Below, one piece after another: positions 1,826 through 34,397 of a stretch of 64,000 nt of DNA (position 1 is the stretch's first letter; the number at the start of each line of letters is the position of its first letter). Made by a program: the position numbers and the translations under genes. The stretch comes from Candidatus Woesearchaeota archaeon (GTDB lineage Archaea; Nanobdellota; Nanobdellia; Woesearchaeales; UBA10216): the NCBI GenBank assembly GCA_016192905.1, contig JACPTG010000003.1, positions 1-64,000 on the forward strand, written 5' to 3'. The notes under the pieces were generated by a model. The model saw only the letters and a program-made list of their open reading frames with translations, did no database searches and was not told the DNA's origin.

Positions 1826-1944
1826 GCAGGCAGCTCCAGGCCCTGATGCGGAAAATGAAGCCAATACTCAGGAGAAACGGGGTTGTAAGGGCAGGCATAT
1901 TCGGCTCTTATGCCCGGGGAGAGGCAAAACAAAGGCGATTTTGA
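1822..1944 (+). pseudogene. Truncated MNT gene
   Basis: It begins MSRQLQALMRK and reaches the nucleotidyltransferase signature GSYARGEAK. The frame then runs into unrelated signal-peptide DNA and stops four residues later. The same signature with an intact continuation (SSDLDLLIQF) is present in the gene at 10688. The junction lies at about 1930. Confidence 0.75.
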
Positions 1945-2057
1945 AGTTTTATGCAATCCAAAAAAGGGGTGTGGGAGTGGCATTTGCAATACTCATAGCC
2001 CTGCTTCCGGCAGCCCAGGCCGCAGAGCCGGGGCACTGCGAGGTGAGGCTGCCTTGA
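1941..2057 (+). CDS. Signal-peptide mini-ORF overlapping a PIN gene start
   Basis: A TTG-initiated 38-residue frame encodes a basic N-region, the hydrophobic core VAFAILIALLPAAQA, and AEPGH, closely matching the signal peptide of the fibre gene at 2907 (ALLPAALAADPGH). Instead of leading into a fibre it ends ...EVRLP, and its TGA overlaps the TTG start of the PIN gene (TTGA). The same layout recurs at 34004 and 34447. It could be a coupled leader peptide or merely a recombination relic. Confidence 0.55.
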   Translation: MKFYAIQKRGVGVAFAILIALLPAAQAAEPGHCEVRLP

Positions 2058-2248
2058 GAAGGGTAATCCTGGATACAAACATTTATGGCAGAGTCCTTGA
2101 ATTTCAGGATTACCATTTACTGATGTCAGCCAAGGACAGGTTTAAAGTGTATGGCAGTGTTCTCATAAGAGCAGAACTAAGTGGCCTCCATTTACCTCTG
2201 TTCCGCACTTATAAGCAATTTGTAGAAGACCTTAAGAGGTTAAGATGA
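2054..2248 (+). pseudogene. Truncated PIN-domain toxin
   Basis: A TTG start with GAGGTGAG just upstream gives LRRVILDTNIYGRVLE, the first acidic motif of PIN ribonucleases. Only about 64 residues remain, against about 150-175 in the intact relatives at 9948 and 34527, so the later catalytic Asp residues are missing. It ends 2 nt before the stop of a convergent mini-antitoxin. Confidence 0.75.
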
Positions 2249-2250: not shown

Positions 2251-2379
2251 CTAAGTAATCCTTTTAGCAAGCTCCTTAACCGCCCGCCTAAACAAGGGAT
2301 CCTTCATGGCCTCGTCTATTTCAGCCACCAGTTCCTCGCTGGATATTACCCGCCTTATTTCCTTCAATTTCGCAACCAT
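2251..2379 (-). CDS. 42-residue mini-antitoxin, convergent with a PIN gene
   Basis: The frame reads MVAKLKEIRR..., then EEAM/DEAM-type helix residues and DPLFRRAVKELAKR. It is a member of a family seen at 2729, 32797 and 34967, with a related form at 10476: a basic N-terminal helix, an acidic middle and a DP-x-FR-x2-[VI] C-terminal helix. A TATA element (ctatatttaag) lies about 25 nt upstream of its ATG. Antitoxin function is inferred from its constant tail-to-tail pairing with PIN genes. Confidence 0.65.
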   Translation of the reverse strand: MVAKLKEIRRVISSEELVAEIDEAMKDPLFRRAVKELAKRIT

Positions 2380-2464
2380 AAAGAGCAAAAGGTGAGTTCT
2401 ATATTTAAGCTTTTTGCAAGGCAATTCGTCATGTTTATATCCAACCTCAGCAGTAAACTGGCAG
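2321..2464. repeat. 144-bp promoter/antitoxin block, duplicated at 35037-35180
   Basis: The block covers the start of the minus-strand mini-antitoxin, the divergent promoter region and a segment before the plus-strand gene. By eye it differs from 35037-35180 at one base. Downstream of it lies a PIN gene here but a fibre gene at 35198. Confidence 0.9.
2432..2440 (+). promoter_or_regulatory. TATA box before PIN or fibre gene
   Basis: gtttatat, followed by the conserved caacctcagcagtaaa leader. The corresponding elements are at about 33961 (gtttaaat) and 35149 (gtttatat). It lies about 36-40 nt before the GTG start at 2476. Confidence 0.5.
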
Positions 2465-2475: not shown

Positions 2476-2748
2476 GTGAAAAGAGTCATGTTTGACACGA
2501 ACATCTATGGGAGGCTGATAGAAAGGGAGGAATTAAAGCTCGTGACCGAAAAAATTGGTGGAAGCATGGCAAATTACGGGAGTGTGATCATCTACTCGGA
2601 GGAGAAGGAAGGCGCCGCAAGGAGCATGCGCTCGCCGGAAGCCTTAAAAGCCTACGAAGTCGTTAATGAGCTAAACCGCTTGGGGCAGGTATCCTTCAGA
2701 AATTACGGACAATTAAGGGTCGATATTGCTAAGAGGTGGTCTTCCTGA
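2476..2748 (+). pseudogene. Truncated PIN-domain toxin
   Basis: GTG (or ATG at 2488) starts KRVMFDTNIYGRLIE, the PIN first motif. About 90 residues remain, and the C-terminal catalytic region seen in the 9948 gene is absent. The 3' end overlaps the convergent mini-antitoxin at 2729 by 20 nt. The leader upstream of the GTG is in frame and matches the fibre-gene leader at 35147-35200. Confidence 0.7.
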
Positions 2749-2851
2749 TGAAATCCCTGACAATAGCCCTGAATTCGGGGTCTCTCATAGCCTCTTCTAT
2801 CTCAGCCTTCAACTCTGCAACACTTCGCCTGCTCCTGACAATCTGGTTCAT
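2729..2851 (-). CDS. 40-residue mini-antitoxin, convergent with a PIN gene
   Basis: It starts MNQIVRSRRSVAELKAEIEE and contains the family signature AMRDPEFRAIVRDF. In-frame ATGs also exist at 2860 and 2869, but the TATA element at 2877-2883 places transcription start near 2851, favouring a leaderless start there. It overlaps the 3' end of the truncated PIN gene. Confidence 0.6.
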   Translation of the reverse strand: MNQIVRSRRSVAELKAEIEEAMRDPEFRAIVRDFIRKTTS

Positions 2852-2906: not shown

Positions 2907-5717
2907 ATGCAATCCAAAAAAGAGGTGCTCAGCAGGACAATCATGGCATTTGCAATAATCCTCGCCCTCCTTCCGGCAGCATTGGCAGCAGACCCGGGTC
3001 ACGCAGCCAGCAGCATAGGCCCAGGCACTTTTGAGCCAGGCAATATCAGCGTCCAGGGCAACTTCAGCGTTGGCGGAGGGGGGACTCTGAGGCTGTTCGT
3101 GGATAACAGCAGCGGGAATGTCGGGATTGGGACAGGGGGGCCAAATGCCACTTTGCAAATAATGGGCGCATCAAACGTCCTTGCCCTCAACGTCAACAAC
3201 ACGCTGTATGTGAACACGACAACGAGCAACGTCGGCATTGGGACGACGAGCCCTACAGCTCAATTGAATTTATTAACCAGTCCAGCTGGTAGCACAGGAA
3301 TAAAGATTTCAAACTCTGCAGGAAGTGATAATTTTGGAACCACCTTTAATGCATTCCAAGCACAACTGTACGGCGGAGGAAACTCAGCTAAACCTTTCAA
3401 ACTATACTCCTCTGGCTATGCTACAGCAAATATGGATGTTGGACCTGCTGGTAGCGGTTTTACTTTTAATCTACTCTCCGATGGTGTTAACATTTTTACT
3501 ATTGCAGGTGACGGAATTGAGCTCACACGATATACCAGTATTAACGGTGGTAGAGATAATGCCTACGCTCTTTCTATGAACGGTGTTATTGGTGGCGGTG
3601 GAGGTATATTGGTCAATCAAGCTAGTAATGCAGGTGCACCCTCTTTGAATATAGTTTCAAATGGAGCAGATGTAGTTCAAGCTTCAATTGCTGCCAACAG
3701 CAACACAGCAACAGGAGTAACAATTACTCAAGCAGGAGCAGGGGCTGCTTTAACAGTAACAGGCGGCAACGTCGGCATCGGCACAACGAGCCCTGTAGCG
3801 AAGCTGCAAGTTGAAGGCAACACTACTATAAACGGCAACTTCAGCGTTGGGGGAAGGGGGACTCTGAGGCTGTTCGTGGATAACAGCAGCGGGAATGTCG
3901 GGATTGGAACTACAACACCAGCATCAAAACTGGTCATTGTAGATACTACCAATTCTGACACGGCACAAACAATATTAAATCTTACGAGGTATCGTAGTCT
4001 CCACGTTGAGGGCGGCAACGCAACGATAAACGGCAACTTCACGGTTGGAAGTCCGAACAATTTCACCTTCTTCGTGAACAACGCGTCCCGCACAGTGGGC
4101 ATAGGGGGATTGTCAAACATAAGCAAGCTGACCATAGCAGGAGGCATGCCCAGTGATGGAGGCTGGACTTCCTCGCTGCGCATCAAACCCATCCACGGGG
4201 AAGACTACCCTTCAATCTACTTCGGAAACCAAAGCAATGCGCAATACTCAGCCATAATATGGACGAACAACACAGGAGACGTACGGTGCGACAACTGCAG
4301 GCTTGCACAAGTAGCCATAAACCCAGCCAACGCCAGCTCATCAGACCTAACCTTCCTCACAAACCCAGACGCAGGAAGGTCAGCGCTTACAGCGAGGATG
4401 ACCATAACAAGCAGCGGCAACGTCGGGATTGGGACGACGGGGCCAACTGCAAAACTGCACGTTGTTAGTGGCGCGTCACCGGGATCTCCCTACACAACAC
4501 CAGTTTCGGTAGCTGGTATTGGTGGTACTGGAACACATGGCGTGCTAGGTCAAACATCAGATGCGAATTATTGGGGGGGTGTTTTCTATAATAACGCCGT
4601 TTCCGGTGCAAGAGAAGTAGATATCGCTGGCGGGACCTATGCTGCAATCTTCTCGGGCGGCAACGTCGGCATCGGGACGACGGGACCACTTGCAGCACTG
4701 CACGTAAACGGGGCAGACGATACAACGCAGATAATGGCAAAAGACGATGATGGAAACCCAACCACAGCAGTTGTTAACATCAGCAGGCCAAACAACGTTG
4801 GTGGCGGTGGCAATGAGAACCAGTCAGCGCTATACATATTGGACAATGGGGGTAATTATCCACTGCATATTGCCTGGCAAAATGGCACACCACTATTTAG
4901 CATAAAAGGCGGGGACATTCTAACCGGCCCAGGTAGAATTGGGATTGATACGACGACGCTTGGTGGCAAGCTGGTGCTCAGTTCCTCTGCAACGGCTACA
5001 TCAGACATAAGAGTCAGTAATTCCGGCGCGTCACAGAGCTTTGGACTCGTAAAGGCGTCCAGAAGCGGTGGTGGCGGTAATTTTGGGATGGTGATTGAAA
5101 ACACGAATGGAGACGCCTCTGGTGATATGCTTGGCTTTGACAAGCAGTCTGCCTCTCCTGCGGCGAACGATATTTTGGGCTACATAAATTTCAGGGGGAA
5201 TGACAGCGGGGGCGCCTGGCAGGAGTATGGCTACATGGTAATGAGGAGTGATGATGTCACCGCTGGAAGCGAGGATGGAGGGTATTACTTTTATACAACC
5301 AAGCAGGGAACAGGTGACTTTCTGACGTTGTCAGCTACGCCTGCAACCCTAGGCGCTGCCGGCAACATAACCGCTTCAGGAGATACAATTACCTTAAACA
5401 CTAATGGAGTGATCCGCTCAAGGTCAGTGACCGTTAACAGGAATCAATGGAATAAAATCGCAAGCAAAATGGGAATAGTTGCTGTGCATGTTGGGACGCA
5501 GAGTTCGGTCTGGGCCGCATACAGCCAGTCCGCCGGAAACATAGACAGCGTATCCAAAATTGCCGGCACCACCTATCACGTTGCCGGCGAAACAGCTGGC
5601 GCTTGGCAAATCGGATTTGCAGCCAACTTTTCAGACGGCTTTATGTATGCAAAACTCGATCCTGGCGGGTGGGGGGCTACAGCAGACCTGGTTGTAACAG
5701 AGTATGGCTCTGATTGA
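2907..5717 (+). CDS. Secreted fibre-like repeat protein (no S74 domain)
   Basis: 936 residues. A Sec signal peptide (residues 1-28, core MAFAIILALLPAALA, cleaved before ADPGHA) leads into a long beta-rich stalk. Its repeats have the form FSVGGGGTLRLFVDNSSGN, then SGNVGIGTT-P-AKL, as in phage and archaeal tail-fibre-like surface proteins. Sequons suggest N-glycosylation. Proteins of this type normally end in an S74 self-cleaving chaperone, but here the C-terminus ends ...ADLVVTEYGSD with no SSRRYKEDI core. S74-like fossils follow at 5744-5774 and 6131-6198. Internal 160-bp blocks are nearly identical to parts of the 35198 gene. It is probably an adhesin or surface fibre. Confidence 0.8.
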   Translation: MQSKKEVLSRTIMAFAIILALLPAALAADPGHAASSIGPGTFEPGNISVQGNFSVGGGGTLRLFVDNSSGNVGIGTGGPNATLQIMGASNVLALNVNNTLYVNTTTSNVGIGTTSPTAQLNLLTSPAGSTGIKISNSAGSDNFGTTFNAFQAQLYGGGNSAKPFKLYSSGYATANMDVGPAGSGFTFNLLSDGVNIFTIAGDGIELTRYTSINGGRDNAYALSMNGVIGGGGGILVNQASNAGAPSLNIVSNGADVVQASIAANSNTATGVTITQAGAGAALTVTGGNVGIGTTSPVAKLQVEGNTTINGNFSVGGRGTLRLFVDNSSGNVGIGTTTPASKLVIVDTTNSDTAQTILNLTRYRSLHVEGGNATINGNFTVGSPNNFTFFVNNASRTVGIGGLSNISKLTIAGGMPSDGGWTSSLRIKPIHGEDYPSIYFGNQSNAQYSAIIWTNNTGDVRCDNCRLAQVAINPANASSSDLTFLTNPDAGRSALTARMTITSSGNVGIGTTGPTAKLHVVSGASPGSPYTTPVSVAGIGGTGTHGVLGQTSDANYWGGVFYNNAVSGAREVDIAGGTYAAIFSGGNVGIGTTGPLAALHVNGADDTTQIMAKDDDGNPTTAVVNISRPNNVGGGGNENQSALYILDNGGNYPLHIAWQNGTPLFSIKGGDILTGPGRIGIDTTTLGGKLVLSSSATATSDIRVSNSGASQSFGLVKASRSGGGGNFGMVIENTNGDASGDMLGFDKQSASPAANDILGYINFRGNDSGGAWQEYGYMVMRSDDVTAGSEDGGYYFYTTKQGTGDFLTLSATPATLGAAGNITASGDTITLNTNGVIRSRSVTVNRNQWNKIASKMGIVAVHVGTQSSVWAAYSQSAGNIDSVSKIAGTTYHVAGETAGAWQIGFAANFSDGFMYAKLDPGGWGATADLVVTEYGSD

Positions 5718-9717: not shown

Positions 9718-9856
9718 AAAATGTGCGTGTCTAAAGGGATTTATAAAACTTTTGCCAGACCTTACAGCCCACCGCAAATTATGCAGAAGTGGCTGAATGT
9801 GCCAAGGATGCAGGTTAAAAAGCTAAAGGAACAGCTCAAAAAACTAAGACAACAGT

Positions 9857-9912
9857 AGCGCTTAGTAAAAAAGGGTGTAACTGAAATCAGGATAAGCAAA
9901 AAGAGGGGTAAG
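9857..9912 (+). repeat. Orphan copy of the giant-gene leader
   Basis: cgcttagtaaaaaagggtg and the following codons for IRISKKRGK match the leaders at 11124, 12405 and 13958. Here it ends after a few codons and is followed by the PIN gene at 9948 instead of a surface protein. Confidence 0.7.
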
Positions 9913-9947: not shown

Positions 9948-10475
9948 ATGAAAAGGGCTTTCTTTGATACTTCGGTTTATGGCGAGCTCATTGATAATGA
10001 CACGCATCTGGGTCTTGTTGCACAAAAGGCAGGGGTACGACTTAGAATATTCGGTTCTACAACAGTCAGAAGAGAACTGGAGGCTGTGCCCGACATAACC
10101 CTGGTTACAAGAGGCAGATTCAGAGGCCTTGGCCTAAGACAGCTCATTGTAATGCTTTATAACCAGCTCATTGCGACTGGCGGGGAGATAAGCGACAATG
10201 ACCTGATAGAAGTGCTAAGCCTTCGCTATAAAATTGAATGCTCCAAACTAAGAACATCCAAAAAAGACATGATGAACGACTTTAGGATAGTTGCTGCAGC
10301 ATGCATGCACAACATGCGCATCTTTGCTTCAGCAGACAAGCAACAGCTTTCCTACGAACCCCTGTTTAGGGAGATAAACGCCAGCTACCAGCTTGACACG
10401 CCAGAATTTGTCCCTTACGCTTCACTTATAACGAATCTGAAAAACGAACAGGAGGGTGGGGACAGTGAAGAGTAA
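9948..10475 (+). CDS. PIN-domain ribonuclease toxin (intact)
   Basis: 175 residues. RAFFDTSVYGELIDN holds the first Asp, IFGSTTVRRELE the conserved Ser/Thr-Glu region, DMMNDFRIVAAACMHNMRIF the third acidic motif and FASADKQQL the last Asp. It is full length, unlike the related genes at 2054, 2476 and 34132. A GGGGGG-type leader (gataggaaaaaagggggg) before the ATG recurs upstream of 10688. Its stop directly abuts the stop of the convergent mini-antitoxin at 10476. Confidence 0.82.
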   Translation: MKRAFFDTSVYGELIDNDTHLGLVAQKAGVRLRIFGSTTVRRELEAVPDITLVTRGRFRGLGLRQLIVMLYNQLIATGGEISDNDLIEVLSLRYKIECSKLRTSKKDMMNDFRIVAAACMHNMRIFASADKQQLSYEPLFREINASYQLDTPEFVPYASLITNLKNEQEGGDSEE

Positions 10476-11053: not shown

Positions 11054-11133
11054 AAAAAGATGACTCTGTATTTGTAGGCCACATGCCTGAGGCTATTGAA
11101 AGGCCATGGACTGGCAACAGCAGCGCTTGGTAA
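11050..11133 (+). pseudogene. N-terminal remnant of DUF86-type HEPN
   Basis: MKKDDSVFVGHMPEAIE matches the start of DUF86 HEPN proteins and overlaps the MNT stop as expected. After about 18 residues the frame runs into the giant-gene leader copy and stops. The HEPN toxin is deleted while its MNT partner is intact. Confidence 0.6.
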
Positions 11134-11456
11134 AAAAGGGTGTAACTAAAATCAGATTAAGCAAAAAGAGGGGGAAGGTAGCTGTAAGGGCAATACTATT
11201 GATAGCTGCAGCGTTCCAGCTTTTCCTCGCTGTAAAAACCCTTGCAGTCCCGGCAGGCTGCCAGTTCTCAACCAACTGCCCGAGCGGCAACCATACTGTG
11301 CTGTACGTCAAGAACGAAACATCAGCAGGGCTGATAGCCGAGGAAGTGCAGGAGTACGAGGAGCTTACAGTTTACCAGCTGGACATTGTCAGGAAGCAGC
11401 AGGCTGAAATAGGCGAGCTGAGAAAGGCGGCAAGGGAGATGAAGAATGGGGAATGA
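11106..11456 (+). CDS. Collapsed surface protein: giant-gene N-terminus fused to S74 tail
   Basis: 116 residues. The leader IRLSKKRGKVAVRAILLIAA, the signal peptide and FSTNCPSGNHTVLYVKNETS match the start of the gene at 14022. The frame then passes directly to SAGLIAEEVQEYEELTVYQL, the end of an S74 chaperone, and a coiled-coil tail. The whole stalk is missing. An ATG exists in frame here at 11106, unlike in the other copies. It may be a relic or a small secreted protein. Confidence 0.6.
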   Translation: MDWQQQRLVKKGVTKIRLSKKRGKVAVRAILLIAAAFQLFLAVKTLAVPAGCQFSTNCPSGNHTVLYVKNETSAGLIAEEVQEYEELTVYQLDIVRKQQAEIGELRKAAREMKNGE

Positions 11457-12235: not shown

Positions 12236-12329
12236 GAGCACTGCTATGGAATGCCGATATATAAAAGTATTGGCTGGAAAAGGGCATAATGGAAATCAGA
12301 CTGCAAAAAAGAGGGGAAAAAGGGCAAAA

Positions 12330-12377
12330 CGTGTTTTGCTTGATACAAACGTGTATGAGAATATACTGCTGCTGTAA
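12330..12377 (+). pseudogene. PIN N-terminal remnant after a leader copy
   Basis: The frame RVLLDTNVYENILLL contains the PIN first motif and stops at once. Just upstream, in another frame, are codons for EIRLQKRG, similar to the giant-gene leader. This is another junction of surface-protein leader and PIN gene. Confidence 0.55.
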
Positions 12378-12404
12378 AAGCGCAAACATATTAAACACAT
12401 AAAA

Positions 12405-12762
12405 AAAAGGTGTAACTAAAATCAGATTAAGCAAAAAGAGAGGGAAGATAGCTGTAAGGGCAATACTATTGATAGCTGCAGCGTTCCTGCTGTTCTTCGC
12501 CGGAAAAACATTTGCAGTCACTGTAGGCTGCCAGTTCTCAACCAGTTGCCCCACAGGCAACTACACTGTACTGTACGTTAAGAACGAAACATCAGCAGGG
12601 CTGATAGCCGAGGAAGTGCAGGAGTACGAGGAGCTTACAGTTTACCTGCTGGACGTAGTAAAAAAACAGCAGGCTGAAATAGGCGAGCTGAGAAAGGCGG
12701 TAAGGGAGATGAAGAATGGGGAATGAGCTTGGAAGAAAGGGGGTGACCGCCAGTAAGAGCAC
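12405..12762 (+). repeat. Direct repeat of 11124-11503
   Basis: About 350 bp covering leader, signal peptide, S74 tail and the first codons of the following gene, highly similar to 11124-11503 with scattered substitutions. The first about 170 bp also match 13958-14140 at the start of the giant gene. Confidence 0.85.
12469..12726 (+). CDS. Second collapsed surface protein (signal peptide plus S74 tail)
   Basis: 85 residues from a TTG. It goes from the signal peptide and GCQFSTSCPTGNYTVLYVKN straight to SAGLIAEEVQEYEELTVYLL and QQAEIGELRKAVREM. The upstream frame (KIRLSKKRGKIAVRAI) is open to a stop but has no ATG/GTG/TTG, as in the giant gene. Possibly non-functional. Confidence 0.5.
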   Translation: MIAAAFLLFFAGKTFAVTVGCQFSTSCPTGNYTVLYVKNETSAGLIAEEVQEYEELTVYLLDVVKKQQAEIGELRKAVREMKNGE

Positions 12763-13841: not shown

Positions 13842-14021
13842 TCACCCTGAATGCTTCCAGAAGGGGGTGGCGCTGAAAGCCTTGCCATTATTTTGCGCCA
13901 GTACACGAAGAGTCAGCATGCTACGATTAATTATTAAGTAAGATATTAAGTAAGCAAAAAGGGTGTAACTAACATCAGGATAAGCAAAAAGAGGGGGAAG
14001 GTAGCTGTAAGGGCAATACTA

Positions 14022-17000
14022 TTGATAGCTGCAGCTTTCCTGCTGTTCTTCGCTGTAAAAACATTTGCAGTCACTGTAGGCTGCCAGTTCTCAACCAACT
14101 GCCCCACAGGAAACTATACCCTGCTATATGTCAAGAATGACACTGCCGGATACCTAAATGCGCATGCGCAGCTTTCCACCAACGGAAGCTACCCATACAG
14201 CCTATGCTGCAACACTACGGTCGGCTTGGTCAACAACTCTGCATGCGCAGGCAACACCACCCTGCTGAACTTTTCTGCTGTGACTAATGCACATGTCCAG
14301 GCCGGGAATACATCAGCGCAGGCATACGGCAACGGCCAGTGCATAAGCACGCAGAATGCAACAGTGCTCGTATACTTCATAGACACAACCTGCCCTGTCA
14401 ACTACACTGCAATCGCCTCTATCAGCAACGACACAAACGCCCACATCGGAGACTCGGCTGAATACACCAGGAAGGTATGCCTCAGGCTGGTTCTGAAGCC
14501 ATCAAACCCATTCACATCCCCGACCTTCTCAGACAACACCTCAGGAAGGCTCAACCAGAACAGCACCTACATCAACCTGACAGTAACCAACGAGACAGAC
14601 ATACACACAATACTTGTGAACTGGAACGGGACTAACGTGACTGTTGACAGCCCTGACCTGCTTCTCAGCTATAGTTTGGATTTAAACGCGACAGACTCAA
14701 GCAGGTATGGCCAGCATGGAAGCCTGGATTCTGGCGCTGCTTGCGGGAATTCGGTTCCTGGAAAAATAGCTAACGCCTGCACATTTGATGGAGTAAATGC
14801 TGCCATAGGCGTTGCAAGCCCTTACCTAAACCTTACAGACCGCGGAACAATCATGCTCTGGTTCAATTCCAGCCGAATAAGACATGAGGAAGCGCTGCTG
14901 ATAAAGGGTCAGCAAGATACGTTTATTGCTTATGGCATCGATTTGGTTAACACCTCAGGAGATACAAGAGTCAGGGCATGGATTGAGACCACAGGATTCT
15001 GGGGTCCAGAAGCATCTGTGCACACAGACAGGGTATCACCAAACGTGTGGTACCATGTCACCGTAACATGGAACTCAACCAACATGACAATCTACATTAA
15101 CGGACTCTTCAAGAATATGAGCAAATCAGCAACACCATATATATCAAAGCAGAACCTGCAAATAGGTTCAGGAGTCACTGGATGGGTCGGCTTACTAGGA
15201 CAAGTAGATGAAGTAAGGATCTGGAACCGCACCCTCAGCTCATCAGAGATAAACGCCTCTTACCTCGCATCAACCGGAAAATCCAGAGACGCCTACGCAT
15301 ACTTCGCCAACTTCACAGACCTTGCAGAGGGCAACTACACCTATTACGTGTGGCTGAATGACAGCGCAACAGGCACCAACCGGACAGTTGACAGGAACTT
15401 CATAGCAGACTTCACAGCACCCACCATAAGCGGCATCTCGGCAACTTCAAACAGCAGCGGCAGGATGTGGATGGCTCCAAACAGCACAACAGCCGCAACA
15501 ATCTGGTTCAACGCCATAGGCACAGAGGGCGACGGCCAGAACGTAACCATACAGGTATCTGCGCAGGACATAATGATAGGCAACCTGTCAGGCAACACAA
15601 CATTCTCGGAAGCGCCAAGAAGCGGGGCAGCAACCCCCCAGATGTACATAAGCTACACGATAGAAGCCAACTCAACAAACAGCTCAACACTCATAACGCT
15701 GAATGACACAGCCCAGAACAGCCCGACGCCGGTCATAACCTGGGCGAACGACTCAGTGGACCCTTTAACCATAGACGACACCAGGGTAAACTACTCAATG
15801 CAATGGTATAATGCCCCTGTAAATATCACGCTAAACGTCTCTGATGTGCATTCAGGAGCGAACAGGAGCCTATGGTGCGTCTACACTGCGGGAACTGCGC
15901 CATGCGCGCCGGGAACCTGGAACTTCAACAAGACAAACTGGGTGCAGCTGAACTGCTCGGCAGACAGCGCATGCTCCCTGATAATCAGGTACTACTCTGT
16001 GGATAATGTCACAAACAACGAGAGCGGAGGCGCCAACGGAGGCGCATACAGGGACAGCAATGTGGTTAACATAGTAATAGGCTCGGACATAAATTATACT
16101 GTTGCAAACAACAGCAACATTTCAAAAGGCTCATTCATAAGGAACAGCATACTCTGGAACACCACAGTAAGCGACTGCACAATACTCGCGTCCAACATAA
16201 CAAAGGGCACTTTCACAAGGAACAGCACCCACAGGTACAACTGCACAATCGAGAGGTCAGTCGTCATAGACTCCAACATAACCTCTGCTGTAATCAGGAA
16301 CTCCTACATAGACCCGAGCGTCATAGTGGATTCTGTGGTGGAAAACTCCAACATAACCAGCGGGACTGTGTTCTACTCAAGGGTTGAGAACACCACCTTC
16401 TGCGCACCAAGCATATTCACATACGAGGCCATAATCAGGAACGAAACCCTCATCAGCGGACTGGTGACCTACAACGCCACCAATTACTACGGCCCATACC
16501 CGATGAGAAACATATGCTCAGGCTCCAAGCCAGAGGCAGCGGCAGGGTTCACAGTCTACCCCACCATAGTAAACAACACCGGAATCCTGATGTTCAAGTA
16601 CGTGGGTTACGCAGTGGGCATGAACATCTCAATAAACAAGAGCGAGCTGAAGACAAGGCTGTTCAACAGCACAATAAACGACCTCATCCTGAAGGACAAT
16701 GGTGATTTGCCTGATGAGGTGCCAAGCGACGGCACATACACTGCCAACCTAACCCTGGATGTAAGCAACAACATGACAGAAGGCGTAAAAACACTGCTGG
16801 CGTACATAGACGACGGCCTTGGCAACAGGTGGAACGTGAACGTAAGCTTAACTCTTGACAACACATCCGGAAACGCCAGCGTGAAGATAAACAGCAATCT
16901 CGGCGTAACCACATCAAGGAACGTGCTCCTTGACGTCGGGTTCAACGACACCTATGGAATAGACCTGTGCAGGTTCAGCAATGAGGAGCGCGACTTCAAC

Positions 17001-20000
17001 CCCTGGGAAGCGTGCACCTCAAGCAAGGCGTGGAGGCTAAGCGGCCAGGACGGGGCAAAGACAGTAATCCTCCAGGTAAGGGACAGGGCTGGCAACATAA
17101 ACGAAACTAATGATACGATAACCCTGTCAACAAGCGAGGCAACCACCATAATAAGGCCTGTCAAGGACTCAAGGCTGAGAGGCCAGGCGGATGCTGACGT
17201 AATAGCGCCATTCGGCACAAGGACAGTCGCGTTCAAGGCATCCAACATAACCCACACCAACATTACCCTGAACGGAGCCTTCGGGGAGAGCAACGACACA
17301 ACCTTCCAGGACGGCTTCAGGATGCAGTGGAACACCTCCCTTCTGGCAGACGGCCTCTATAACCTCACAGCCATAAGCTGGGACAACAATAACATATACA
17401 TAAGCAACTACACTGTGATGAACCTGACGATAGACAACCTGCCCCCGCAACTCTCAGCACCTCTGCCGACCACCCTGCAAAGGGGCAGGTCATTCATAGT
17501 GAACATTACAGTAAATGAGGAAGCCGCCTGCAAGTACGACTTTTCAAACGCAACATATTCAAATATGGCCTATGCCATGACAGAGTATGATGACACCAAC
17601 AACAAGCACAGCGCAATAGCCACAGTCCCGGATGACGCTTACTACACCATTTACTTCTCCTGCACAGACCAGGGAGGCAGCGCAAACACAGCAACCACAG
17701 GCAGCTTCCAGGTCGCCACAGGGGCAATTGTGATGGGGTATGTGCAGCCCACTGATGATGACAAGGTCTTTGTCAATAGGAACTACACGCTAATAAACCT
17801 AAGCGTCATAAACTCCACCAGCGTGCACACAGCATTGATTGAATTCAACGGGACAAACATCACGCTTGACAGCACAAACCTGCTGCTTGCCTATGACTTC
17901 AACAACAACACCATTGACAGGAGCAGGTACGGGAATAATGGAGTAAATGAAAGGGCAAACTGTACTACATCAGATGCAGGCAAATTCGGCTATGCCTGTA
18001 ACTTTGATGGCCTGAGCAGTCAGGTTAGGACGCTTACAACGGGCTTTAGTAACTCCACAGGAGCTGTGGAAGTTCTTATCAATATGAATAACGTTGGAGC
18101 GGGCAACAATTACACCATATTTGCAACGCCAAGTGAAATCTCGCCCAATATGTCAGGCTTGGTTGGGCTTTGGCACTTCGAGCAGAATTCCACTGCCGCG
18201 AATGGCGTAAAGGATTCAAGCATCTATGGTCAGGACGGAAATGCCACATCGGCCACATATGTTACCGGTAGGTTTGGAGGAGGTTGGGATATGAATCAAG
18301 CAGGGAGTGTAGACGTACAGGGTCGTGCTCTTCCCACGGGGAATCAGCCAAGAACGGTAATGTTCTGGGTGTACCTTAAGAGCCATGCAAATGAAAACCA
18401 AGAATTCTTCATATACTATGGGACGGGTAGCAGTAGCGTATTCACGTTATATCAAAATCCATCCGATATTAGATTTGATATCAGTGGCGCAAGTACTCCT
18501 TCAGGAATTATTCTGAATTTGTCGCGTTGGGAACATATAGCTGTGACATATGCTAGTCAAAAACTAAAATTCTACAAAAACGGCCGATTATTTTCAGAAG
18601 CAGACACAGGTAACTTAGCTACAGCGACCAACACAAATCTCCAGATAGGGGGTTCGAGTTTAAATGCAATAATGGATGAGGTAGCGATATTCAACAGAAG
18701 TCTTTCCGAGGCCGAAATAAGAGACCTGTATCTGGGCGGATTATCAATGCACAAATATTCTAATGACTTAAGGTTTGTAGCAGGAAACCAGACGTTAGCC
18801 TATACCACTGCTTGGACCTCCGGATGGAATGCTGTCGCTGGCAGCTACAATGAGACTGCGGCATTCTTGTATGTTGATGGTAATGAGGTAAACAGCACGT
18901 TAACCAGAGAGCCAGTATTCCTCGGCACCAATGCGCATATAGGAGGCATGCATAACGACAGCCAGAACCTCACCTTTAACGGTAGCATTGACGAACTAAG
19001 GGTGTGGAGCAGAAGATTAACTTATTCAGAGCTTAATGTATCACCGATAAGGGAGCTTGGGAAACAGTTCTCTAATCTAACTGGGCAGAAAGACGGCAAC
19101 TACACCTACTATGCTTACGTAAACGACACAGCTGGGAACAAGGCATTCAGCTCCAGCAGAACAGTAATAGTAGACACTGTCATCCCCACAGCTTCAGTCC
19201 TGATTAACAGCGGCCTCTCAAACACCACTGCAAGGCTCATCTCTCTGAGCATCACTGCAAACGACACAAACGGCGGAGTGCAGTGCAGGTTCAGCAATGA
19301 GGACAGGGGATTCACAGCATACGAAACATGCTCAGATTCAAAATCGTGGAGCCTCTCAACCGGAGACGGAACAAAGACAGTAGTCCTCCAAGCCAGAGAC
19401 AAAGCTGGAAACGTGAACGAGACAAACGACAGCATAACCTTAACAGCAGCATCAACCACAGTCATAATCAGGCCAACCAGCAACACCATCTTGAGACAGA
19501 ACAACACCATTGACATCACAACACCAGACGCCACGCTCTGGGTAACCTACAACATCACTAATGCCAGCAACAGGGCGCTGAGCTTCGCCCCCAACGGCTC
19601 ACTCGGGCAAACCCTGAACGACACAAGTCCGGGTGACGGCTTCAGCGCGACGTGGATGACAACCGGATTCGCGGATGGAACGTACAACTTCACAGCCACA
19701 AGCTACGGAGCAGAAGGGCAGCTAAGCTCAGACACAGAGACAAACATCACCATAGACAACACACCGCCCTCCTTAACCAGCCCGCAGCCCACAACCGTGC
19801 AGGGCAGCAGAGTATTCTACGTCAACGTAACAACAAACGAACAATCAACCTGCAAGTACGACTTCAGCAACGTAAGCTACAGCAGCATGGCAAGCAGCAT
19901 GACCGCAAGCTCAACCACAACCTACGGAGCCATAACAACAGTCCCAACCGACGGCTACTACACAATCTACTACGCATGCCAAGACAAAGCAGGAAACACA

Positions 20001-23000
20001 AACACAGCCACCACAGGAAGCTTCCAAACAGTGCAAACAGGCGTAAGCATAACCTACACTACTCCAACCGACGACGACAAAGTCTTCGTGAACAGGAATT
20101 ACGCTTACATCAATCTAAGTATATCAAACAGCACCTCTGTAAGTACCACAACTATAAATTGGAACGGCACCAACTACAGCCTATACGAAACATCAACAGG
20201 ACTGGTAGGTCTGTGGCATCTTGACAACAGTACAGCGGACAGCAGCGTAATGGGTAATAATGGAACAAACAATGGAGCTGACTGCTCAACCAACACAATC
20301 ACCCAAGTAGGCAAAGGTTGTAGCTTTGATGGAACAAACGATTACTTAAACACAACAGTTGCAGGATTTGGTGTTAATCAAGGAACAATAATGCTTTGGA
20401 CTACGCCAAATTTTGCCGGAAATGATAATCAGAGCAGGTACCTATTAGACGCAAGGAACCTTACTATATTCATTCAAGAGGGCACAACAAATTACGTAAC
20501 TAATCCCAGCTTTGAAGTGAGTACGGGAGGATGGACGAGTCAAAATACACCTTATAGGGTAAACAACGTGTCATTTATTGGTAATTACTCTTTAATGACA
20601 AAGGGGCAGGGTTCAGGCAGTGGACATTACATAACATTCACCATTAAGGATTCAGGAACTTACACATTATCCATGTACGCCAAGATGGAAGACGGATCAG
20701 ACCCAACTTCTAGGAACATAGCAGTTGTATTCCAGCCGTCAGGGTACGGATTTTCATGGAGCGGGAAGGAGTATGTAGGTAACGGATGGTACCGGTTATC
20801 CTACACTGCGACCCTTACGGCTGGTAGTGTGGAGGTAGGAATGCTTAACTATTATGGAGGTGCGGATAAGACTGGCCAACAATTATACATTGACGGAGTG
20901 CAATTAGAGCCTGTTGATCATGCAACTGGCTATGCTGATGGGACTTTGGGACCTGGTTATGTTTGGAGCGCAACTGCCCATTCTTCAAATACTACCCGGG
21001 CAGCTAACACGTTAATAGCCAGACTGCAAAACGCTACATACAGACAGGCAAGTGCAAATATTTCAATTTGGCAGCAAGGCCAAACACACCACATAGCAGC
21101 AACTTATGACAACACGACCCTAAGCCTTTACGTTGACGGCGTATTAGCTCATAATGCTTCAGGAAATTGGAGTCCAACTTTCTCAAACGGACTATTCATA
21201 GGTACAAACCAAACCTCAACATTAGGCAGAGAAATTTTCTTCAACGGAACAATTGACGAAGTCGCAATATACAACAAGACCCTAACAACTGAAGAGATAA
21301 ACAGAACATATATGCTTCAAAAAGATCTGCACAGTTCAGTTAAGGATGGACACGGATTATACTATGCCAATATAACAAATTTAACAAATGGCAATTACAC
21401 TTACAGCGTTTATGCCAATGACTCAGCGAACAACAAGGCTCAAACTGCTACACGAACTGTAATAGTAGACACAATCAACCCCACAGCGTCAATACTGATT
21501 AACAGCGGATTGAGTAACACCACAGCCAGGTTAGTATCGCTTAGCATAACTGCGAATGACACCAACGGCGGATTGCTTTGCAGGTTTGCGAATGAGGACA
21601 GGGGATTCACAGCATGGGAAACTTGCAGCGATGCGAAGGCGTGGAGCCTATCAACAGGCGACGGCCTAAAGCAAGTAGTCCTCCAAGCCAGAGACAGAGC
21701 AGGAAACATAAACGAGACCAACGACACGATAACCTTGACAGCAGCATCAACCACTGTCATAATCAGGCCAGTAAGCAACTCTATTTTGAGGCAGAACAAC
21801 ACCATTGACGTTACAACGCCAGACGCCACGCTATGGGTAATGTACAACATAACCAACGCAAGCAACAGGGCGCTGAGCTTCGCCCCCAATGGTTCACTCG
21901 GGCAAACCCTGAATGACACGAGTCCTGGTGACGGCTTCAGCGCGACGTGGATGACAACCGGATTCACAGACGGAACATACAACCTCACAACCACAAGCTA
22001 CGCGGCAGAAGGACAGCTAAGCACAGACACAGAAACAAACATCACCATAGACAACACACCCCCACAACTAAGCAACCCACAACCCACCACAACACAAGGT
22101 AGCAGAGTATTCTACGTCAACATAACAACAAACGAACAATCAACCTGCAAATACGACTTCAGCAACGTAAGCTACAGCAGCATGGCAGGCAGCATGACCG
22201 CAAGCTCAACCACAACCTACGGAGCAATCACAACCGTCCCAACCGACGGCTACTACACAATATACTACGCATGCCAAGACAAAGCAGGAAACACAAACAC
22301 AGCAACCACAGGAAGCATCCAAGCCGTCCAGACAGGCGTAAGCATAGCCTACACTTCCCCCACTGATGACGACAGGGTGTTTGTGAATAGGAATTACAGC
22401 TACGTGAACCTAAGCATAGCCAACAGCACAAGCATAGATACAATCTCAGTCAGCTGGAATGGGACTAACGTGACTATAGACGACCCTTCACTTGTTCTCG
22501 CGCTGGATTTCAACAACAACACCAATGACAGGAGCAGGTATGGGAATAATGGAAATGACGTTAATGGCGCTAACTGTTTGAATACAATCCGGGGAAGATT
22601 TGGAACGGCTTGCAGTTATAATGGGCTTACAACTTATGTGAATATTAGTAATCCAAGAATGTTTGATTTCAATGGAAAATTCACAGTACAAGCTTGGGTA
22701 AATTTAACAAGTTATTCAACTGGAATATTATCCGCAATTGTTGGGCACGAAGCGACTCAAACATGCGGCGGTAGCAATAATGGTTGGGCACTCGTAATTG
22801 GCACTGGTGGCAAAGCCGGACTTTCAATTAATAATGGGTCAACCTATTCCGGTGCAACAGGAACAACCTCTCTTAACAATAATACGTGGTATCAAATCAC
22901 AGGTGTATTCGACGGAGTAGATGCACTTATCTATGTAAATGGGGTTTTAGAAACTAATGCCAGCATTGGCGGAGTCGGAATACCTGGTTCATGTACCCCC

Positions 23001-26000
23001 TTATGGGTAGGAGCAGAAAAGGTGGGAACTCAGGACAGATACTTTAATGGAACTATAGACGAAGTCCGAATTTGGAACAGGAGCCTGAGCTATTCTGAAA
23101 TCAACGCATCTTACACCGCAGAATTGGGCAGATTCTTTGCAAATCAAACCTTCCAAAAAGACGGCAACTACTCATACTATGCGTACGCTAATGACACCGC
23201 AGGCAATAAAGTATTCAGCAGCACACGAACAGTAATAGTAGACACAGTCATTCCCACAGCTTCCATACTGATTAACAGCGGGTTGAGTAACACCACTGCA
23301 AGGCTCATCTCGCTTAGCATAACTGCGAATGACACCAACGGCGGATTGCTTTGCAGGTTTGCGAATGAGGACAGGGGATTCACAGCGTGGGAAACGTGCA
23401 GCGATGCGAAGGCGTGGAGCTTAAGCACAGGGGATGGAACCAAGACAGTGGTGCTTCAGGCAAGGGACAGGGCAGGCAACGTGAACGAGACCAACGACAG
23501 CATAACTTACTCGGCAACCGGGCCGACAACGATACTGAGGCCGCTTAGCAGCAGCGCAATCCGGCTAAACCAGACGCTGGATGTGGCTGTGCCTGACGCA
23601 GCGTTATGGGTAACGTACAACATCACCAACGCAAGCAACAGGGCGTTGAGCTATTCGGTTAATGGCACTCCAAACCAGCTCACGAACGACACATCTCCAG
23701 GGGACGGCTGGAGCCAGACCATAGTAACAACCACCATTGGAGATGGAGTGTTCAACCTCACTGCAAGCAGCTACAGCATAGAAGGGCTGATAAGCAGCGA
23801 TACAGAGACGAACATCACCATTGATAATACTGTGCCGCAGCTAAGCAGCCCGCTGCCGACAACAACCCAGTTCAGCAGGACGTTCAGCGTAAACGTGACA
23901 ACCACTGAAAAGGCAGCCTGCCATTTTGACTTTATAAACGCAACTTATGATTCAATGCTTGGGAGGATGTCAGCTGCGAACACGACAAGCTTCAGGGGTG
24001 TTGCATCAGTGGCAACCGATGGAACATACGCCATATACTTCGCGTGTCAGGATGCGGCAGGGAACACGAACACGGCAACTACAGGGGCGTTCTTCGTCAA
24101 CTCAACAGCGCCTGTGGTTACCGCGTCCAGCCCGTCAGGCTTTGTGAACGCCCCTGCAAACCTCTCTGTAACCACAACAGGGGTTGCAACCTGCCACTAC
24201 TCGCAGTCTGATGTCAATTTCACCCAGGAGACAGTAATGCCTGTAACGAATGGCACAAGCCACCAGGCCAACGCGTCAGCCCTGTATGTTGAGGGAAGGA
24301 ACACCTTCTTCATAAGGTGCGCAGAGACAGCTACAGGCGGAAATGCAATGCTGAGCTCAATAACAGTCGCATTTACGTATGACACCCGGCCGCCGGTGAT
24401 AACAGGCCTCAGCCCTGCAAACAACAGCTTCACCAACTCAAGGGGAATAAGCTTCAGCCTGAGGGACACAACATCATTTGTCAACAGGAGCAGCATAATG
24501 GTCTGGTTCAACAACTCGGCAACGGGCAGCTTCAGCCAGGCAAGCAACTGCACTGAGAACGGACTTGGAGGGTATGACTGCAGCTTTGTTGAAGTTAACC
24601 TTACAGCAGGCTTGGCCAACAACTTCACCGTGCTTGCCAACGATTCTGCCCTGAACCTCCTCCAGGCAGTCATTAACTTCACTTACGACACCGCAGGCCC
24701 GGGCATAGTTATCAGCAGCCCGCTCAGCGGCGCAGTGCACAACACAAAAAGCCTTTACCTGAATGTAACGCTGGGAGAGCCTGGAAGCTGCCGCTTCGCC
24801 AGGACAAACACAAGCTATGAGAGCATGCCCAGCGGCTTTGCCAACTCATCCAGCACAGCATTCAGCGGGAACATCCTCGCAGACGAGGGCAGCAACACCT
24901 ACTACGTATCGTGCAGGGACAGGGCAGGAAACGAGGGCAGCAACAGCACAACCTTCCAGGTTAACACAACCGCCCCTGTAATCCTGAACATCGGGCCAAA
25001 CGGCACTATCAACAACCCAGGGATAAACCTGAGCCTGACTACCGATGACACAGCTTACTGCTCTTACAGCCAGAGCGACATCAACTACAGCAGCATGACT
25101 GCATTCACAGTAACCGGGGCAGCGCAGCACCAGGTCAACGTAAGCAGCCTGTACAGGCAGGGAGTAAACGTCTTCTTCGTAAGGTGCGCTGACACTTCAG
25201 GAGGAGTCAATGCAATGTCAGGGTCGGCTGTTGCCATATTCACATATGACACTTCACCCCCTGCCATCGCTTCTGTTGTGCCTTCCAATGGCAGCAGGGT
25301 AAACACCAAGATTGTCAGCTTCAGCCTTCGCGACTCTACTACTGGCGTGAACCAGAGTACGGTGTTCACAAGGTACAACAGCTCGGTCAGCGCAGCATTC
25401 AGCTCAGCGAACAACTGCACTGCAAACGGTCTGGGCGGCTTTGACTGCAGCTTCACAGAAGTCAACATCACAGCCGGGCTGAACAACATAACGCTCCTTG
25501 CCAACGACTCAGCAGGAAACAGCCTGATACAGAACATTACCTTCACATACGACACAACCGGGCCGGCAATCACGATAAACAGCCCGGTCTCAGGCTCAGT
25601 CTTCACAAGCCGGAGCCTCTTCTTCAACGTGAGCCTTGACGAGGCAGGCTTCTGCAGGTATGCGCAGACCAATGTAAGCTTTGACAGCATGCCAGCCAGC
25701 TTTGCCAATGTATCAACTACCGCGTTCACCGCAAGGATATACGCAGAGGACGGAAGCAACACCTATTACATACGCTGCAAGGACATTGCAGGCAATGAAA
25801 ACAACGCATATACCACCTTCCAGGTTAATACAACTCCGCCTGTAATCCTGAACATCGGGCCAAACGGCACTATCAAGGACCCGCTGAACCTGAGCGTAAC
25901 AACAGATGAAGTTGAATACTGCGCATACTCGCAGAGCGACGTGAACTTCAGCAGCATGACAGCATTCACAAACACAGGAGCAGGCACACACCAAACCAAC

Positions 26001-29000
26001 GTGAGCAGCCTCTACAGGCAGGGAGTAAACGTCTTCTTCGTAAGGTGTGCTGACACTTCAGGAGGAGTTAATGCTATGGCCAGCTCTGCCATAGCCGTGT
26101 TCACTTATGACACTTCACCTCCTGTCATCGCTTCTGTAGTGCCTTCCAACGGCAGCAGGACCAACTCAAAGTCTGTCAGCTTCAGCCTGAGGGATTCAAC
26201 AACAGGAGTTAACCAGAGCACGGTGTTCACAAGGTACAACAGCTCGGTCAGCGCAGCATTCAGCTCAGCGAACAACTGCACAGCAAACGGCCTTGGAGGG
26301 TATGACTGCAGCTTCACAGAAGTAAACATCACCGCAGGCCTGAACAACATAACAATCCTTGCCAACGACTCAGCAGGGAACAGCCTGGTACAGAACATTA
26401 CCTTCACTTATGACACCACCGGGCCGGCAATCACGATAGACAGCCCTGTCTCAGGAGCAGTGTTCAACACAAGGAACACATACCTGAACATAAGCCTTGG
26501 CGAAGCGGGCCTATGCAGGTTTGCGCAGACGAACACAAGCTATGACAACATGCCCGCGACCCTCTCAAACACTTCCGGAACAGCGTTCACCACAAACCTG
26601 CTGCTTGCTGAAGGCAGCAACACCTATTATGTACATTGCAAGGACATTGCAGGCAACGAGAACAACGGCTACACTACTGTAACGGCAAACACAACAGCCC
26701 CGGTAATCCTCAACCTTGCTCCAAACGGGACACTAAGCAACCCGGGAATAAACGTGTCAGTCACCACAGATGACGTTGCCTACTGCTCTTACAGCCAGAG
26801 CGACATCAACTACAGCAGCATGACAGCGTTCACCGTGACAGGCGCGGTTGTGCACCAGGCAAACCTTAGCGGACTGTACAGGCAGGGAGTAAATACCATC
26901 TTTATACGCTGCGCTGACACTTCAGGAGGAGTCAACGCAATGAGCAGCTCGGCAATAGTCCAGTTCACCTATGACACTTCTGCCCCGGTAATAGCAAATG
27001 TTGCCCCGGTGAACAACAGCAGAGTAAACGCCAAGACTGTCAGCTTCAGCCTGCGCGACTCAACAACAGGCGTAAACCTCAGTACTGTCTGGATGAGGTT
27101 CAACAACAGCCTTACCGGAAGCTTCAGCCAAGCTGCAAACTGCACAGCAAACGGCCTTGGAGGGTATGATTGCAGCTTTGTGGAAGTCAACATCACCGCA
27201 GGCCTGAACAACATAACAGTCCTTGCCAACGACTCTGCAGGGAACAGCATGGTGCATAATGTAAACTTCACATACGACATAACCGGGCCAGCAATTACAA
27301 TAGACAGCCCTGTCTCAGGAAGCGTATTTACAACAAGAAACTTGTTCCTCAACGTAAGCCTTGGCGAGGCAGGGTTCTGCAGGTATGCCAATACCAATGT
27401 CAGCTACGATAGCATGGCAGCCACGTTCCCCAATGTTTCAGCAGCCGCATTCACAGCTAATGTCCAGGCAGTTGAGGGAGGAAATGCATTCTACGTGCAC
27501 TGCAAGGATGCAGCAGGAAACGAGAACAACGGATTCACAACATTCCAGGTCAACACTTCCTTCCCGGTAATCCTCAACCTTGCGCCTAACGGAAGCATCA
27601 GCAACCCGGGAATAAATGTATCAGTTACCACAGATGATGTCGCATACTGCGCATACTCGCAGAGCGACGTGAACTTCAGCAGCATGACAGCGTTCACCAA
27701 TACGGGAGCTGGAACGCACCAGGTCAACGTCAGCAGCCTCTACAGGCAGGGAACCAACATCTTCTTCATACGCTGCGCTGACACTTCAGGAGGGGTAAAC
27801 CCGATGCAGTCATCAGCGGTCATAAGCTTCTACTACGACTCAGTCCCGCCAGTGGGCGCATTCACTGTGAATGACAGCGTGGTAAAGGACGGGGACTACA
27901 TAACCTTCAGGTTTGAGGGGACAGAGACAGGGATAAACGTCACTCTTCCTGCCTCAGAGCTAAGCAGGCTGGACTTCAACGGGACAAGGTTCGTGCTTAA
28001 CGACTCAGGAACATCAACAGACAGCCTGCCGAACGACGGAATATACGCAGGCGTCTACAGGATAGCGCCGGACAACAACGTAAGCGACGGGGTAAAGACA
28101 CTCACGCTGACTGTAAACGACAGCCTGAACAACACAAAATACTTCACTGCAAACGTGACGCTGGACAACACCAAGCCAAACGCAAGCATACAGGTCAACT
28201 TCGGAGCGACCACAACCAGCAGCAGGTCAGCGGGCCTGAACCTGGTGCTCAACGACAGCAATGGAATAGACGCCTGCCGCTTCTCAAATGAGGACAGGAG
28301 CTTTGACGACTGGGAAACCTGCACAGGCACAAAGGGATGGGTAGTGACCTCAGGCTTCGGCGTAAAGACAGTTGTAGTGCAGGTGAGGGACCAGGCAGGC
28401 AACGTAAATGAAACCAACGACACAATAAACCTCGTAAGCGGCGCAGGGCTGTTCGGAGTGCTCACAGCCAACGACAGTGTGGTGGCTGACGGGAATGTGA
28501 TTAAATTCATCTTTGAAGGCAGCAACACAGGGCTGAATGCAAGCTTCAACTCATCTGAAATTGGAAAGCTGGACTTCAACAGCACAGAACTTGGATTAGA
28601 TGACTCTGGGCAGAATGGCGACTTCCTTGTGGGAGACGGCCTCTACACAGGCGTTTACACCATAGCCGCGAACAACAACGTGAGCGACGGGGTAAAGACA
28701 TTAACGCTGACTGTAAACGACACTGCCGCGAATTACTTCTACCCGACGATAAACATAACGCTGGACAACACGCCTCCGAACGGCAGCGTCAGCGTAAACG
28801 GGGGCGCAACAACAAGCATCACAAGGTCAGTGGCGCTGGAACTGCTGTTCAACGACTCGGTCGGGATAGAGGCGTGCCGCTTCGCCAACGAAAACCGGGA
28901 GTTCAATGACTGGGAGGCGTGCACAGGGACAAAGGGATGGCTTGTAAGCGCAGGATTCGGGACTAAAACTGTTGTTTTCCAGACAAGGGACAAGGCAGGC

Positions 29001-32123: not shown

Positions 32124-32632
32124 TGGAATCAAGCAGCCATGTTAAAGTGCGTGCCCGGCTCATAGATTACTATATATACATTGATTACTCCGAGTGGCTT
32201 ATAGGTTACGCAATAATAGCAAATGAACAAGTATCTGAGCTTATCCCTAAAATCGGCAAACTCAGGCACTTTAAGGATGTTAAATATAAGAAGGGTTATC
32301 TAAGTGCTGCGAAAAGGACGTTTGAGAGCCTCCTAATTGACAACTATCTGCTGAAGTGCAGGATAATGCCTCTGAAGGATAACCTGGCCGCCTTCGTTGA
32401 GGTGCTGGATTTTGTCCAGAAACATGACAACTGCAAGATTTTTGCTTCTGTTGACAACAAACAGTTCTGGTCATTCGTAAAGCTGCTCAGCATGATTCAG
32501 CATAAGGATAACATAACTGTTGTAAAGGAGAGTGAGCTGAAAAAAGGCTCGGTTGAGTACCAAATGAGCCTGATAATTGACACAAAATTAAACATAGAAA
32601 GGTTGAGTAAGAAGACCCGTCAATCCTACTAA
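32123..32632 (+). CDS. Unknown protein coupled to the giant adhesin gene
   Basis: 169 residues, no recognised domain. The start ATG shares one base with the adhesin stop (TGATG), implying translational coupling. It contains LIDYYIYIDYSEWLIGYAII, KRTFESLLIDNYLL and CKIFASVDNKQFWSFVKLL. The last segment faintly resembles IFASADKQQL of the 9948 PIN protein, but the first PIN Asp motif is not evident. Its last 51 bp are repeated at 33230. It could be a divergent nuclease-type toxin or an adhesin accessory. Confidence 0.6.
   Translation: MESSSHVKVRARLIDYYIYIDYSEWLIGYAIIANEQVSELIPKIGKLRHFKDVKYKKGYLSAAKRTFESLLIDNYLLKCRIMPLKDNLAAFVEVLDFVQKHDNCKIFASVDNKQFWSFVKLLSMIQHKDNITVVKESELKKGSVEYQMSLIIDTKLNIERLSKKTRQSY
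32576..32626 (+). repeat. 51-bp repeat, second copy at 33230-33280
   Basis: Identical by eye to 33230-33280 and encodes the end of the 32123 gene (DTKLNIERLSKKTRQS). The copy at 33230 has no gene body before it, so it is probably a deletion or duplication scar. Confidence 0.85.
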
Positions 32633-32796: not shown

Positions 32797-32925
32797 CTAA
32801 GTATGTCTTCTCACAAAGTCGCGCACTACCTTCCTGAACAAAGGGTCTTTCATAGCCTCATCTATCTCAGCTATCAGTTCCTCACCCGAGATTTTGCGCC
32901 TGATTTCCTTCAATCTTGCAGCCAT
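32797..32925 (-). CDS. 42-residue mini-antitoxin
   Basis: MAARLKEIRRKISGEELIAE, then DEAMKDPLFRKVVRDFVRRH, nearly the same as the proteins at 2251 and 34967. A TATA element (ctttaagtat) lies about 25 nt upstream. The plus-strand gene facing its 3' end is the unknown 32123 protein, 165 nt away, in the slot where other copies face a PIN gene. Confidence 0.65.
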   Translation of the reverse strand: MAARLKEIRRKISGEELIAEIDEAMKDPLFRKVVRDFVRRHT

Positions 32926-33868: not shown

Positions 33869-34003
33869 AATTCCATGGATGGCAGGGGCATATTTAAAGC
33901 TTATGGCTCAGATGCCTGGTCAACAAGCCGCATTCACACCATCCGCAAATACTTCAGAAAGTTTAAATCCAACCTCAGCAGTAAAATGGCAGGGGCAAAA
34001 CAG

Positions 34004-34135
34004 GTGAAAGGAAAGGCATCAGCCGCATTACCGGCAGTATTAGTCCTGATGGCAGCCCAGGCAGCAGACCCCGGCCACGCAGCCAGCTGCAGCAAGGCTC
34101 CAGTCGGTCACCCACTCGTCAGGAGGCTCAAATGA
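34004..34135 (+). CDS. Signal-peptide mini-ORF overlapping a PIN gene start
   Basis: GTG start, 43 residues: KGKASAALPAVLVLMAAQA, then ADPGHAAS and a tail ending HPLVRRLK. Signal peptide and ADPGHAAS match the fibre genes at 2907 and 35198. The TGA overlaps the ATG of the PIN gene (ATGA). The upstream leader also matches the fibre-gene leader at 35150-35200. Confidence 0.55.
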   Translation: MKGKASAALPAVLVLMAAQAADPGHAASCSKAPVGHPLVRRLK

Positions 34136-34263
34136 GGCTCCTTCTGGACACCAACATATATACCGCCCTCCTGAAAGACGCCGGGGCGAAGCAGCTATTA
34201 CTAAATGCGACATCTGCTGCCAATGTGACAAGCAAAAACTTAAATGAAGAACTAAAAGCTCAC
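34132..34263 (+). pseudogene. Truncated PIN-domain toxin
   Basis: MRLLLDTNIYTALLKDAGAK is the PIN first motif. Homology ends after about 44 residues at the stop of the convergent mini-antitoxin (34260). The frame stays open but continues as antisense of that gene. Confidence 0.7.
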
Positions 34264-34397
34264 CTGCGGGACAGCAGCCTGTCAAGCGCTTCCAACTCTT
34301 CCAGGTATTCTGCACTCCTCTTATGCCTTTCCACAGCCCTAAACACAGCCTCAAGCCTGCTCACAAACAGACCTTTTCCAATTGACACTGCCTTCAT
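34260..34397 (-). CDS. 45-residue antitoxin-like protein convergent with PIN
   Basis: MKAVSIGKGLFVSRLEAVFR, then a charged helix (RHKRSAEYLEELEALDRLL). It is a different sequence from the DP-x-FR family but has the same size and tail-to-tail position. A ggtttaaaag element about 35 nt upstream could be its TATA box. Confidence 0.5.
   Translation of the reverse strand: MKAVSIGKGLFVSRLEAVFRAVERHKRSAEYLEELEALDRLLSRR

Follow-up and report, generated by a model that had tools for sequence, protein, structure and literature searches.

A near-identical connector block and stacked surface-protein leaders among putative PIN toxin modules in a Woesearchaeota archaeon

The stretch of DNA analysed here (the window: 64,000 nucleotides of contig JACPTG010000003.1) comes from a DPANN archaeon (Candidatus Woesearchaeota) in which duplicate leaders stand at the head of four surface-protein loci, with toxin-antitoxin (TA) modules between the leaders. 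A duplicate leader consists of a promoter and a signal peptide; the surface-protein body is absent. One fibre gene lies near the start of the window, behind a series of short genes encoding PIN-domain proteins and small proteins that we call mini-antitoxins.

1941-2057, plus strand: orphan fibre leader, a signal peptide followed by a stop that overlaps the PIN start (TTGA)
2054-2248, plus strand: PIN gene, 3'-truncated, 64 aa
2251-2379, minus strand: mini-antitoxin gene, tail to tail with the PIN at 2054
2321-2464, no single strand: connector block copy A (N-terminal half of the mini-antitoxin on the minus strand, divergent promoter, fibre 5' end), leading to a truncated PIN; 143/144 identical to copy B
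2476-2748, plus strand: PIN remnant with an internal in-frame deletion, profile positions 2-44 joined to 122-165
2729-2851, minus strand: mini-antitoxin gene convergent with the PIN at 2476
2907-5717, plus strand: fibre gene A, intact, 936 aa

The second fibre gene is approached through a comparable series.

33961-34135, plus strand: fibre promoter and orphan leader; the stop overlaps the PIN start (ATGA) at 34132
34132-34275, plus strand: N-terminal fragment of a PIN gene
34457-34530, plus strand: orphan fibre leader; the stop overlaps the PIN start at 34527
34527-34970, plus strand: PIN gene, 147 aa, VapC-like fold; the four acidic positions are all present and the C-terminus is short
34967-35095, minus strand: mini-antitoxin gene convergent with the PIN at 34527; its N-terminal half lies inside block copy B
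35037-35180, no single strand: connector block copy B, leading to fibre gene B; 143/144 identical to copy A
35198-36879, plus strand: fibre gene B with an S74 chaperone end; frame broken near 35834

A preliminary description of this DNA had reported one 144-bp block at 2321-2464 and again at 35037-35180, containing the start of a mini-antitoxin gene, and both points hold. The copies differ only at position 2441, an identity far above chance, and the minus-strand reading frame in the block (MVAKLKEIRRVISSEEL...) is that of a mini-antitoxin of about 42 aa, of which the block encodes the N-terminal half. The middle of the block is a divergent promoter with TATA-like stretches. Its right part is the fibre gene's own upstream region and 5' end, and the same upstream region recurs in this genome ahead of the fibre signal peptides at 33961 and at position 12252 of contig C1. 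The two copies are direct and the window holds no inverted repeats of at least 40 nt, and programmed inversion was set aside on these grounds. A weak DNA match on contig C2, which by eye falls within an apparent DNA gyrase gene, was treated as a chance hit.

Beside the block copies, identity falls to about 65% on the left, in the antitoxin C-terminus (42/65), and to about 69% on the right, gene side (18/26); beyond both flanks there is no similarity. A block this similar amid diverged flanks marks a short homogenised tract within older homology; it is no recent copy of an entire unit. The mini-antitoxin at 32797-32925 is just 72-73% identical to either block antitoxin. Paralogous antitoxins here are therefore normally far more diverged; the block was homogenised recently, as by gene conversion.

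Copy B does open a real fibre gene start at 35198, as had been proposed. The PIN reading frame said to follow copy A at 2476 is also present, as a remnant that lacks profile positions 45-121. The in-frame deletion takes away the catalytic middle, including conserved E41 and D109, and the gene therefore does not encode a working toxin. This PIN may plausibly have lost its leader through recombination between the similar GTGAAAAGA-like starts of leader and PIN. In all, three of the five PIN genes in the window are broken. The frame change in fibre gene B (window 35651-35880) falls exactly where a 183-bp stretch ends that shares 96% identity with fibre gene A at 3816-3998; the change could reflect either a gene-damaging conversion tract or an assembly slip.

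One to three orphan leaders precede each fibre gene (those at 2907 and 35198 in the window and that on contig C1). The orphan fibre leaders depart from the fibre sequence less than about 40 nt past the cleavage site and then reach a stop, which is followed by a TA module. The modules in this position are PIN plus mini-antitoxin, DUF5615/DUF433, or another PIN with a VapB-like partner. On contig C1 (L012 7656-8117, 8400-8909), a VapB-like gene with a PIN_2 gene lies between fibre leaders in the orientation opposite to the leader.

A giant surface gene between the two fibre loci is headed in a similar way.

9850-9912, plus strand: copy of the giant-gene leader start, leading to the PIN at 9948
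9948-10475, plus strand: PIN gene, intact, 175 aa
10476-10619, minus strand: mini-antitoxin gene convergent with the PIN at 9948
11106-11456, plus strand: mini-gene, the giant-gene leader fused in frame to the coiled C-terminus, body absent
12303-12377, plus strand: leader-start sequence fused to a truncated PIN start (KRVLLDTNVYE)
12403-12726, plus strand: second mini-gene, leader and C-terminus, body absent in frame
13938-14254, plus strand: leader region of the giant surface gene (ORF 14022-32123, 6033 aa)
32797-32925, minus strand: mini-antitoxin gene without a recognisable PIN partner

The leader of the giant gene is thus stacked before PINs and mini-genes, which extends the leader-before-toxin pattern to a second leader family in the same window. 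At the other end of the giant gene, its stop overlaps the start of a 169-aa ORF (32123-32632) without a Pfam match. This ORF occupies the coupling position held elsewhere by PINs after surface genes, and the lone mini-antitoxin at 32797 comes next.

PIN homologues were found in 47 of 288 genomes of the order, and a phylum search recovered them in 45 of 371 genomes, all of the same order or class. They include sequences from Candidatus Woesearchaeota (JACPBT010000082, NZCN01000006, JACPMW010000047, and JACPTD010000022), from Aenigmatarchaeota, and from the complete genome GW2011_AR10. In the profile search of contigs, matches came from a five-row PIN alignment; a query of two PINs gave none, and an alignment of 43 rows was too diverse. 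Among 51 distinct PIN units, 49 have a mini-ORF with a common C-terminal motif placed tail to tail with the PIN, and the two exceptions are one contig end and one split PIN. When 100 genomes were searched with the mini-protein profile only, 23 of 24 good matches were convergent to a PIN that had been found separately. Distances among PINs and among their partners covary (Mantel r 0.44, p 0.0002), and the convergent pair is intact and conserved across many genera.

Within the PIN family, D7, E41, and D109 are invariant and D128 is nearly so. An AlphaFold model of the PIN (pLDDT 87.7) has VapC and FitB toxins as its best structural matches in the PDB, with TM of about 0.6, and Pfam PIN matches were obtained for 20 of 43 family members. 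The partner is about 40 aa long, with no DNA-binding domain recognised. There is no named NCBIfam family for either protein, no convincing Pfam family among 45 mini-protein partners, and no convincing match in PADLOC or PDB sequence searches. Nothing relevant to convergent (tail-to-tail) protein TA pairs, links between TA modules and surface proteins in DPANN, or leader coupling was found in the open-licence literature searched. The PIN modules constitute a family that is unnamed in the curated libraries and open-licence papers covered by these searches.

The relatives compared are draft and metagenome-assembled genomes, the nearest of which belong to other genera. In 22 of 47 units, the PIN start coincides with the end of a signal-peptide ORF (control genes, 24 of 194), and the PIN start and the ORF stop often overlap by 4 nt. 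In 18 of 46, a signal-peptide gene begins no more than 450 nt past the antitoxin (controls, 78 of 392). The p-values for such comparisons are optimistic, as array units and related genera are non-independent and signal-peptide calling relied on a simple heuristic. A recognisable signal-peptide ORF is absent before about half of the PIN units in relatives. The possibility that the 4-nt overlap between the PIN start and the stop of an ORF of at least 35 codons arises by chance was checked against control genes and rejected (18/47 units versus 43/346). The sequence before the PIN resembles that after the antitoxin in 17 of 45 units, compared with 81 of 1,948 cross pairs.

Individual genomes display the same architecture. 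In one (G015), a leader-PIN unit is followed by a protein of more than 3,500 aa with a related leader, and in another (G142), the leader before a PIN and the leader before a 768-aa protein are identical at 155 of 160 positions. A tandem array in G002 comprises four leader-PIN units and a fifth leader at the contig end; in three units, leader and PIN start are 91-94% identical, whereas the PIN bodies are only about 64-66% identical. The arrangement of the block, with one connector before a PIN and before a surface protein, repeats in G123, from another family of the order. There, copies of a connector of about 190 nt, about 99% identical, lead once to a leader-PIN unit and once to a 628-aa surface protein; the part from antitoxin start to promoter is identical at 147 of 149 positions, and the tract extends into the leader. 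PINs also lie directly behind complete surface genes (G123, G213, and G084). Across G002 and G123, connectors are 91-99% identical and PIN bodies about 62-66%. Homogenised connectors between diverged bodies are the trace expected from repeated recombination at connectors, and recombination at common connectors is well supported by these comparisons.

Part of the earlier picture of a common promoter therefore stands: the same promoter and leader precede toxin and surface-protein genes at several loci and in other genera, with homogenised connectors and differing bodies. The stronger statement, that the two block copies are direct evidence of exchange between toxin and surface-protein genes, is not supported as worded. 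The pattern is one of past recombination (conversion-like tracts, body deletions, and stacked orphan leaders) rather than continuing exchange, and the PIN that follows copy A is inactivated. The locus is better described as a stack of leader-toxin units that lies upstream of an intact surface gene.

The layout of these units is conserved across genera, homogenised connectors lie between divergent bodies, and bodies have been lost in a way that leaves orphan leaders. We consider it probable, with real room for doubt, that the block is a connector between units of an array of toxin and surface-protein genes, in which the units recombine, the PIN is coupled to a leader, and the partner neutralises it. 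Each unit consists of a promoter, a surface-protein leader (signal peptide), and then either a surface-protein body or directly a gene for a PIN RNase. The PIN gene ends tail to tail with the putative antitoxin gene, which would be read from the divergent promoter heading the next unit. At connectors and leaders, recombination or gene conversion would delete or swap what comes behind, such that surface-protein bodies are lost or replaced and leaders remain. The PIN would be a VapC-type toxin, translated by coupling to the preceding leader or surface-protein ORF, and neutralised by the convergent small protein. As the antitoxin promoter would be shared with the next surface gene, loss of the promoter region would release the toxin; the modules would then tend to stabilise the surface locus, and the array would be hard to lose. 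We infer coupling, toxicity, neutralisation, and stabilisation from gene order and sequence.

The arrangement could also be an ordinary decaying island: its repeated surface genes and TA modules would undergo duplication, conversion, and erosion, its orphan leaders would be neutral leftovers, and the block would be a single tract of gene conversion. This is a fairly unlikely but substantial alternative. The broken PINs and fibre gene B fit with decay, as do further repeats in the window that resemble conversion tracts (97% over 503 bp, 96% over 183 bp) and the TA modules of other families that likewise follow orphan leaders on contig C1. Against it, the convergent pair is kept intact across many genera, orphan leaders stay open and overlap the PIN start by 4 nt more commonly than control genes, and all orphan fibre leaders end within about 40 nt past the signal peptide. 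We regard as improbable that PIN and antitoxin form a selfish cassette whose insertion sites lie immediately after surface-protein leaders and which duplicates the leader on arrival. The module is indeed flanked by a leader on either side in G142, G123, G015, G279, and others, and PINs directly after complete surface genes (L087, L097, and L103) would suit such insertion, but the extent of the duplicated segments varies from case to case, and a non-systematic look noticed no transposase, integrase, terminal repeats, or constant junction.

The presence of one connector before a PIN and before a surface protein, here and in G123, might alternatively suggest an active switch akin to antigenic variation, with one promoter alternating between toxin and fibre genes. 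This is very unlikely given the inactive PIN at 2476 and the lack of inverted repeats of at least 40 nt in the window; moreover, each block copy has its own promoter, so toxin and fibre could be expressed simultaneously. Least credible of all is that the convergent ORF is antisense overlap of the PIN 3' end and not a protein. Many units do show an overlap of about 20 nt between this ORF and the PIN end, but most of the conserved motif (DPEF.KA...FI) falls beyond the overlap, and the motif is common to different phyla.

Returning to the array of recombining, leader-coupled units, its modules resemble VapBC in having a PIN-fold RNase with conserved acidic residues (closest structures, VapC and FitB chains) and a small partner. 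They differ in that the partner is convergent on the opposite strand, whereas VapBC forms a single operon, and in that the roughly 40-aa partner is without a recognised DNA-binding domain. As in integron cassette arrays, repeated connectors separate variable genes and TA modules could stabilise the array, but the connectors are promoter and leader instead of attC sites, and no integrase was noticed in a non-systematic look. Polymorphic toxin systems likewise combine a leader related to secretion with neighbouring toxin and immunity-like genes; here, in contrast, the leader and the toxin occupy separate ORFs, which differ in frame and overlap by 4 nt, instead of one exported fusion, and the partner is convergent. 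Short conversion tracts and partial copies without bodies recall antigenic variation by gene conversion from silent surface cassettes, whereas in this case toxins are interleaved, with no expression site identified.

These comparisons raise the possibility, which we hold tentatively, of a new class of TA system in DPANN archaea: a leader-coupled PIN RNase with a convergent mini-antitoxin that uses the promoter of the next surface gene, where chains of modules would make survival depend on the presence of surface genes, and recombination between connectors would renew the surface proteins. Most DPANN archaea are believed to live attached to other cells. The conserved link between surface leaders and TA modules offers a testable way in which DPANN surface loci could be protected and reshuffled, and adds a putative TA family with convergent gene order, so far without a name in the libraries and papers searched.

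Further repeats lie downstream of fibre gene B. A ParE-type toxin gene with its small upstream partner is duplicated over 503 bp at 97% identity (36968-37470 and 49297-49799). Between TA modules across 36840-50760 of the window, pieces of the fibre 3' end with trailing sequence recur (at 37507, 40431, and 44245), and shorter 3'-end pieces occur near 49297 and 50662. It is possible that these recurring 3'-end pieces mirror the stacking of leaders at the 5' end.
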